DNA of 46,347 bases from Paludibacteraceae bacterium (lineage in GTDB: Bacteria; Bacteroidota; Bacteroidia; Bacteroidales; Paludibacteraceae). Numbering within the stretch: the stretch's first letter is position 1; each line of letters begins with the position of its first letter. The notes below the pieces were generated by a model, which was given only the letters and a program-made list of their open reading frames with translations, did no database searches and had not been told where the DNA came from. Shown piece after piece: positions 11,801 through 12,729 of the stretch. Location: the NCBI GenBank assembly GCA_017558065.1, contig JAFYWK010000010.1:1-46347 (forward strand), read 5' to 3'. The position numbers were made by a program, and so were the translations under genes.

Positions 11801-12256
11801 TTATTTTATACGATCGAAATAGAATGTGTATATAATCTCTTCGTCATAGTCTTCGAATTCAATCTCAAGAATAAGTTTTGTATCAGTAAGTTTTTTAATT
11901 GTAAAATAATCAGCATCACCACCAAACCAATCATCAATTAATTCGGTGTATAATTTTTTCCCGCTTACATTGTAGTCGTACTTACCTTCTCTCTCTCCAT
12001 CCCAGTAAATAGTCAAATTCTCATCATCATCAAATTCCCAAACATATTCTTCGCTACCATAACTCTCAGAATCACTTTCGGTATCACCGTCAAATGATAC
12101 TTCGTAAGCTTGTTCGGTACATTCCCATTCACCGATGATAAGATCTTCTGTAGCATCGCTCGAAGGTTCATTTTTTTTGTCGTTTTGACATGAAGTGATA
12201 AACATAGGCATCATTGCTACCAGCAACATTACCAAAAAAGATTTCATTGTTTTCAT
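11801..12256 (-). CDS. Small acidic lipoprotein, possibly lipocalin-like
   Basis: The 151-residue product starts with a lipoprotein signal peptide (MKSFLVMLLVAMMPMFITSC, acylated Cys at residue 23 of the 12256 start), so it should be anchored to the envelope. An acidic linker follows, then a beta-rich domain opening LIIGEWECTEQAYEV and continuing with alternating strands (YVWEFDDDENLTIYW, GKYDYNVSGKKLYTE, TKLILEIEFED). The opening IIGxW and the strand pattern resemble the lipocalin-like small lipoproteins common in Bacteroidales; this is inference. It is AT-rich compared with nearby housekeeping genes. It may start at 12247 instead. A strong terminator follows. No canonical promoter is visible right upstream, where the putative ncRNA ends. 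Confidence 0.75.
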   Translation of the reverse strand: MKTMKSFLVMLLVAMMPMFITSCQNDKKNEPSSDATEDLIIGEWECTEQAYEVSFDGDTESDSESYGSEEYVWEFDDDENLTIYWDGEREGKYDYNVSGKKLYTELIDDWFGGDADYFTIKKLTDTKLILEIEFEDYDEEIIYTFYFDRIK

Positions 12257-12320
12257 AATTGTTCTAATTTGTTTTGTTTATATTACCGAATACCATTTTC
12301 CTTGTTGTATATAGACATAC

Positions 12321-12367
12321 AAAAAGCGCAGACCTCGAGTTGCTTATTTACAAGTCGAGGCCTTCGC
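12321..12367 (-). terminator. Terminator hairpin of the putative ncRNA (minus strand)
   Basis: On the minus strand GCG-A-AGGCCTCGA pairs with TCGAGGTCT-G-CGC (one mismatch, one G.U), followed directly by a run of five T. It lies between the putative RNA and the lipoprotein gene, and no protein gene ends here. Confidence 0.85.
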
Positions 12368-12633
12368 ATTGCCTTAAAAGTCTAATAAACAACAGGAAAC
12401 CTACGCTGGTATGAAAACACACCACACCCAATACAAGTGCGGTATGAATACAATCATACCCATAGGCATTTACTGTTACTTTGATTTTGACTTTTAATTC
12501 CGAAAGTTGCGAAGTTTCGACTTGCCAAACGCAAAGCGTCAATAAACGCTATTCAATATGTCAGAAACCTACCCCAAAAGTGCATTCGCAAAACGATTTT
12601 TGCAAAACATATCTGCCCTCCAGCGTAAATTTC
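12321..12633 (-). ncRNA. Putative structured non-coding RNA, about 310 nt
   Basis: A transcription unit with no credible protein: a canonical promoter at 12646-12639 (minus strand) and a strong terminator at 12367-12321. Within it, TACGCTGG near the 5' end (about 12627-12620) can pair with CCAGCGTA (about 12408-12401), closing a large domain. Inside are further hairpins, such as GGTATGA/TCATACC (about 12461-12442), GCGT/ACGC (about 12549-12536) and CGAA/TTCG (about 12520-12511). A 64-residue frame (12542-12348) exists, but it covers the paired segments and its ATG lies about 90 nt inside the transcript. It lacks the landmarks I know for tmRNA, RNase P RNA or SRP RNA. My recollection that similar short 'hypothetical proteins' recur in Bacteroidales databases is unverified; it would mean a conserved, multi-copy element. 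Confidence 0.62.
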
Positions 12634-12638
12634 GACTG

Positions 12639-12646
12639 CAAAGGTA
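12639..12646 (-). promoter_or_regulatory. Promoter of the putative ncRNA
   Basis: TACCTTTG on the minus strand with TTG at 12669-12667, 20 bp apart, -33 box TTTGCATGTGT. It points away from the ATPase gene and towards the structured RNA. Confidence 0.85.
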
Positions 12647-12729
12647 CTATAAAAAATCGACACATGCAAATAAAAATAGTTTTTTTGCGTAATTTTTATT
12701 CTATACTTGTGTATATTCAAAAAAAATTG

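Follow-up and report, generated by a model that had tools for sequence, protein, structure and literature searches.

A multi-copy RNA of the Bacteroidia that probably acts as a transcription attenuator with two mutually exclusive folds

Outside a handful of model species, little is known of how the Bacteroidota control genes at the RNA level. Riboswitch and attenuator leaders lie in cis, with a promoter before the element and a terminator and antiterminator that share strands, and all of these features recur in an RNA on the minus strand of the 46,347-nt stretch of Paludibacteraceae DNA analysed here (the window). Unlike those leaders, the window RNA is built of a pair of long hairpins, complementary in their loops and apparently able to rearrange into a rod, and it matches no Rfam family.

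Among described RNAs, the FopS small RNAs of B. thetaiotaomicron are alike in being a multi-copy Bacteroidales family with an intrinsic terminator (PMC11697453). According to that report, FopS RNAs have a single-stranded 5' stretch and a terminator hairpin, act in trans and have predicted targets enriched in outer-membrane proteins, and 9 of the 14 copies are intergenic, 4 are antisense and 1 comes from a 3' UTR (PMC11697453). The window RNA is predicted to be paired across most of its length and, by that description of FopS, differs in design. DUF805 and DUF805b RNAs (RF03081 and RF02914) are RNA elements that Rfam also types as cis-regulatory, but they are separate from the window-type RNA; in the five loci that hold both, one of them sits between its U tract and the gene. 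Finally, Bacteroidales-1, Flavo-1 and 6S-flavo are structured RNAs of Bacteroidetes as well and are listed with Rfam accessions in an earlier survey (PMC2864571); the window RNA matches none of the three. One of our loci (L328) holds a Flavo-1 element elsewhere, apart from the RNA.

Identity and spread of the RNA

The first-pass annotation had described a structured RNA of about 310 nt without a credible protein or a landmark of tmRNA, RNase P RNA or SRP RNA, and had supposed it to be conserved and multi-copy. This much our analysis upholds, adding strong co-variation and the lack of an Rfam match; the further views, that the RNA is a stand-alone gene and that the divergent DUF4143 ATPase could be its partner, are not supported by the comparison of loci given below. 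Positions 12633-12321 of the minus strand fold to -108 kcal/mol, against -76.3 +/- 4.9 kcal/mol for 100 shuffled sequences (z -6.5). The 64-codon frame, the one examined as a possible conserved leader peptide, was rejected as a protein: of the 28 copies with the start motif (29 were aligned), all but the window copy meet a stop within it.

The window RNA gave no covariance match in Rfam 15, and none was obtained at gathering scores on the RNA in 80 further loci (two of which are one and the same place) with Rfam families that include T-box, 6S, TPP, DUF805 and Flavo-1, nor with one short copy up to an E-value of 10. The stretch CCAGCGTAGG resembles the TPP riboswitch motif; a TPP-like aptamer was nevertheless discarded, as no Rfam TPP match appeared even at E-values up to 10. 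We found no description of this RNA in the abstracts and main-text passages searched; an earlier survey, such as the one that reports 3161 candidates (PMC8040213), may have listed it without a name. Attenuators are a known kind of element; this family, with its two-hairpin and rod design, its copy number and its spread, has no counterpart in Rfam 15.

Copies were found by blastn and covariance models both in the source genome and in its relatives. Blastn gave 3 full copies in the source genome and hit 21 of the 61 genomes sampled, which all belong to the same genus. A covariance model of 234 positions (R1) found 21 copies in the source genome at E <= 3.1e-8. The window core (12320-12551, minus strand) scored E 2.1e-57 in that genome with R1, which was built from an alignment that contains the window copy, and covariance E-values are in general rough. 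The genome counts that follow are lower bounds, because stricter filters were used and limited matches were scored per genome in searches of more than 40 genomes: R1 detected the RNA in 88/150 genomes and 21/33 genera of the family, in 47/295 genomes and 30/183 genera of the order, and in 3/247 genomes of a class sample, all three within the order. A second model (R2), from 12 short copies, gave 2 further matches in the source genome (C15 and C38) and extended the range to 110/295 genomes and 76/183 genera of the order and to 32/149 genomes of a class sample, 28 of these outside the order. In twenty class-level matches inspected by eye, the elements come in the same order and the end is U-rich.

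Named genome contigs, scanned for the pattern, yielded at least 118 stretches, and 76 of the first 80 are real copies. The contigs are mostly titled Paludibacteraceae bacterium or Bacteroidales bacterium, many with ruminant hosts. Seven chance pattern hits (L065-L067, L071, L080, L093 and L139) were left out, and the later named set comprises 113 matches, 112 of them distinct, in these at least 118 stretches, with four chance hits and the cut locus L099 missing. Three viral pattern hits were rejected, as they lack the other motifs of the RNA. A clear copy (L175, 195.6 bits) lies on a contig titled uncultured Holosporaceae bacterium, which is probably mis-binned, and a degenerate copy in the source genome (G000:C66:3456-3652, minus strand; L207; E 0.007) precedes a paralogue of the gene behind the C2 copy. 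On contigs of G352, G052 and G249, several short-type copies lie a few hundred bases from the contig start, as if beside repeats that break assemblies.

Core identity averages 0.68 in 91 copies. It is highly improbable that the element is a palindrome of mobile DNA, or a leader that gene duplication has multiplied, without regulatory function, a reading that could account for the number of copies, for those before paralogous genes (L193-L195 and L201) and for the several near contig ends, but that is at odds with this mean identity, with the co-variation of both folds described below and with the diversity of downstream genes. Likewise, the window copy had no blastn match in 50,697 phage and 72,556 plasmid records, among which divergent copies could be missed.

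Two sets of helices on shared strands

All features of the RNA named in this section are on the minus strand. The core begins with strands a and i1 (12524-12551), the 5' strand of a first hairpin, H1, part of which also lies in a local hairpin, P2 (12535-12550; weakly supported, swap z -2.7). It continues with X (12489-12524), which consists of the GAAACTTCGCAACTTTC hairpin and its flanks and serves either as the H1 loop or as the 5' strand of the rod, and with i2 and a' (12464-12491), which form the H1 3' strand or, alternatively, the 5' arm of P5 and its rod extension. A variable apical stem-loop of P5 follows (12415-12453), its tip being down to a few bases in short-type copies. Strands b and p6 (12384-12406) are either the 5' strand of the putative terminator hairpin H2 or the 3' arm of P5 (the candidate antiterminator), X' (12351-12383) is either the H2 loop or the 3' strand of the rod, and p6', b' and the U tract (12320-12348) complete H2, which consists of T and P6. 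A lineage-specific, terminator-like local stem, GCGAAGGCCTCG..CGAGGTCTGCGC, lies on the 3' arm of H2 (12326-12367).

Both the RNAalifold consensus of 29 copies and an alignment of 34 copies yield the rod, with long-range helices between X and X' and P5 as the inner helix. In the 34-copy alignment 95.3% of cells are paired, and co-variation is 0.248, compared with 0.046-0.077 with slid partners. When the segment that runs from the 3' arm of P5 as far as the U tract is folded alone, it forms a single long hairpin, H2, whose base adjoins the U tract; its outer stem closes in 31/35 diverse copies and in 162/184 of all, and the other 4 of the 35 segments fold preferentially into different hairpins. 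By a crude criterion, 78 of 91 copies have a hairpin and then a U-rich tail at the 3' end, with two kinds of local stem. A simple terminator scan of the window listed other stems, the H2 hairpin being absent from the listing.

To assess each helix without a structure fitted to an alignment, the 5' segment of every copy was paired both with the 3' segment belonging to it and with 3' segments swapped in from the rest of the set. For T+P6 in 35 diverse copies (184 thinned to 36, with L140 left out) the true pairing had a z of -10.7, and 0 of 2000 swaps were as good; L142 was omitted from the set for P6. In 27 diverse copies, those of alignment A5 (34 copies, without L140 and L245) also present in alignment A4, from which seven window-type copies are absent, z was -10.9 for H1, -11.2 for H2, -10.1 for P5 and -20.0 for X.X', and the local stems L and R within X and X' reached -4.6 and -3.6. 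These z values include shared ancestry. An outer rod stem of a with b', present in the first RNAalifold drawing, was dropped as unsupported (z -1.4 in the 27 copies), and in a repeat set non-partner pairs gave +1.8 and +2.1; since non-partner pairs thus stay near zero or positive, shared ancestry alone does not produce values of the size seen here.

A matrix of 91 segment pairs from the 27 copies separates the two folds further, as only nine pairs reach -5 and all nine belong to one fold or the other. The two-hairpin helices gave -5.7 (a-a'), -5.9 (i1-i2), -5.5 (b-b') and -8.1 (p6-p6'), and the rod helices -18.8 (x1-x1'), -11.2 (x2-x2'), -10.1 (i2-x3'), -5.6 (i2-p6) and -5.4 (a'-b); the next-best pair, i1-p6', had -3.2. 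Two conserved partners thus exist for each of the strands a', i2, b and p6, and in particular b and p6 co-vary both with b' and p6' of the terminator-like hairpin and with a' and i2 of the antiterminator. A repeat with 16 pairs on 53 other copies (short type and class sample; 7 of 60 copies were dropped for lost anchors) gave -3.8 (a-a'), -8.8 (i1-i2), -8.3 (b-b') and -9.4 (p6-p6') for the hairpins and -24.7 (x1-x1'), -16.7 (x2-x2'), -13.7 (i2-x3') and -20.4 (i2-p6) for the rod. The P5 core a'-b was weak in this set (z -2.5; 7 of 1000 swaps) and a-b' had -1.0, while the values for x1-p6' (-7.2) and i1-x1' (-5.9) are inflated by segments that overlap true partners. Co-variation, whose absence would have counted against the earlier annotation, is thus strong and supports two incompatible folds.

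Upstream of the core lies a 5' leader hairpin (12564-12633), one arm of which, ATTTACGCTGG, can alternatively pair with the P5 3' arm CCAGCGTAGG. In 113 copies from the source genome and the named contigs, true leaders matched this arm better than swapped leaders did (z -7.7), and in the window copy the complementarity reaches 14 pairs, GAAATTTACGCTGG with CCAGCGTAGGTTTC; the helix is rare among the 27 order-level copies. As judged from these pairings, the leader arm is a further competitor for strand b in the source-genome and named copies. The earlier suggestion that TACGCTGG and CCAGCGTA close the RNA on itself was correct as to the complementarity, which is real, and not as to a simple closing stem, as several strands compete. 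Directly 5' of the core, GACATATT (12555-12562) is conserved in many copies, as seen in alignments and upstream sequences.

A putative attenuator and its control

The promoter TTTG-N20-TACCTTTG (12639-12670, minus strand), whose transcript is expected to start near 12633, is of the Bacteroidota type. When the region was compared with the source genome by blastn, 30 of 35 matches at E <= 0.01 covered the promoter part only, as expected of a Bacteroidota promoter. With the terminator-like hairpin H2 and the U tract ending at 12320, both ends of the promoter-to-terminator unit proposed at first pass are present. Among the 200 copies that have both stretches (24 of 224 lack one), the box TAnnTTTG occurs in the 135 nt upstream of the RNA in 170, and in 10 between the U tract and the start codon, a shorter stretch with a median of 68 nt and a mean of 76 nt. 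Judged by TAnnTTTG alone, most downstream genes would therefore depend on read-through.

The gene behind the window RNA, on the same strand (11801-12256), encodes a 151-aa lipoprotein-like protein with a lipocalin-like domain (Pfam Lipocalin_4, 22.1 bits, just under the cut-off of 22.4). Of 184 distinct copies, 8 are followed by no ORF within the locus; for the others, the nearest downstream ORF lies on the strand of the RNA in 172/176, at a median distance of 80 nt, and the nearest upstream ORF does so in 105/171. By this gene order, the window RNA is the 5' leader of the lipoprotein gene 12256-11801 and not a stand-alone gene. With tblastn (E <= 1e-5), a relative of the window's DUF4143 ATPase turned up in no more than 5 of the 224 loci of the RNA, one of the 5 being the window locus itself and the flanks differing between loci, and the ATPase is thus no regular partner; the constant neighbour is the co-directional gene immediately downstream. 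A stand-alone RNA that acts in trans and is made by constitutive termination, as the first-pass annotation proposed, would fit the complete promoter-to-terminator unit and the strong predicted folding, but it is improbable in view of this co-directionality and of the rarity of a promoter box between RNA and gene, and it would have no need of two conserved, incompatible folds. A stable RNA may also be cut from the leader and act in trans.

Comparison of copies shows that two sets of helices draw on the same strands, how RNA and gene are ordered and where the promoter lies: a co-directional gene behind promoter and RNA, a terminator-like hairpin at the U tract and a putative antiterminator that shares its strands. 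From these we propose, with a probability of roughly 0.78, that the RNA is a cis-acting transcription attenuator with a built-in antiterminator and two mutually exclusive folds. RNA polymerase would start near 12633 and make the leader before it reaches the lipoprotein gene at 12256. In the two-hairpin state, a.a' and i1.i2 would form H1, and b.b' and p6.p6' would form H2, which together with the adjoining U tract would act as an intrinsic terminator and end transcription. In the rod state, the complementary loops X and X' would pair, so that the H2 loop is held, and the inner strands would pair as P5 (a'.b and i2.p6); as P5 takes the 5' strand of the terminator, the polymerase would read on into the gene. 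Since H1 and H2 are local, they would form first, making termination the probable kinetic default, and a signal (a ligand, a protein or polymerase speed) would shift the balance toward the rod. In the window, CUUCGCA of X and UGCGAAG of X' are a 7-base complement between the hairpin loops, and refolding may begin with a kissing contact there. Two conserved, incompatible folds also allow a direct and cheap test of the attenuator, as each predicted mutation should move downstream expression up or down.

As to the signal, control by a protein that binds the RNA, by an elongation factor or by the speed of the polymerase, any of which could set the lifetime of the local hairpins before the rod forms, is a candidate to which we give somewhat less than even odds. 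Although the hairpins are local, the unconstrained minimum lies 5.4 to 21.6 kcal/mol below the fold with the halves kept separate in 13/13 copies, energies that are model values without pseudoknots, with the minimum structure inspected for the window copy; with the last 18 nt held free, this falls to 12/13. The long stems, the complementary loops and the diverse downstream genes would also fit such control.

Genes behind the RNA

The downstream genes mostly encode secreted proteins, as far as a heuristic can tell. By a strict signal-peptide rule, 138/203 first downstream ORFs pass, compared with 152 of the 538 remaining ORFs in these loci (Fisher P 8.7e-23), and by a looser rule, which 41% of the background passes, 126/172 compared with 263/639; both rules are home-made. 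Pfam searches covered 65 of the 101 downstream proteins from named loci, 10 of the 19 from the class sample, and 8 from the source genome together with two window proteins. In the source genome, further downstream genes encode a C10 peptidase with an inhibitor domain, DUF4988/collagen-repeat proteins and an OmpH-like protein, and among the 65 named proteins BspA-type LRR ranks first with 6, ahead of PEGA with 3 and CsgG with 2. At class level, DNA-methylase domains were present in 5 of the 10 scanned proteins, two of them with further restriction-modification domains, ten that were picked partly for looking like such genes; the secreted-protein theme is accordingly not universal. The copies concerned, from other orders (L324, L326, L329, L331 and L335), precede DNA-methylase genes that resemble restriction-modification systems, and four of them end in CCCACGCAGRTTTTTT.

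No evident pathway common to the scanned downstream proteins emerged, and this bears on the idea of a riboswitch, in which one small molecule or second messenger, bound by the conserved core, would decide between rod and terminator. Second-messenger riboswitch regulons resemble such multi-copy, strand-sharing designs, and the near-invariant stretches, the strands shared by terminator and antiterminator and the roughly 20 copies in one genome are compatible with it. Much of the conservation, however, is explained by strands that need two partners each, no obvious pocket was seen, the P5 tip being only a few bases in the short type, and together with the missing common pathway these points lead us to regard a riboswitch as unlikely.

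A broader reading of the attenuator, which we offer tentatively and which could well be wrong, is that one global signal is read in cis by about 20 leaders per genome across the class Bacteroidia, the toggle between rod and two hairpins co-switching a large share of the secreted proteins as well as, in other orders, restriction-modification-type DNA-methylase genes. Such a toggle would be bistable, and cells of identical DNA might therefore come to differ. Apart from this broader reading, the RNA would represent a very widespread class of attenuators of these bacteria: a genome of 2.4 Mb holds about 20 copies, which stand before genes whose products face the cell's surroundings.

Further conserved elements lie between some copies of the RNA and their genes. 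DUF805 or DUF805b RNAs (clan CL00115) are located between the U tract and the first ORF in L189 (1844-1878), L190 (1851-1885), L205 (1731-1765), L294 (1780-1845) and L303 (1857-1922), and L294 has a second DUF805 RNA at 2744-2812. About 25-65 nt past the core, L189 and L190 share a second terminator-like hairpin, GAAAGCGG..CCGCTTTTTTT, identical in both. In the source genome, a conserved stretch, ACCAACGGGGCGTTTGGAGCCAACTTCCCACAAAA, separates terminator and gene in L192-L195 and L197; it has diverged in L201 and L203 and precedes at least two different kinds of gene.
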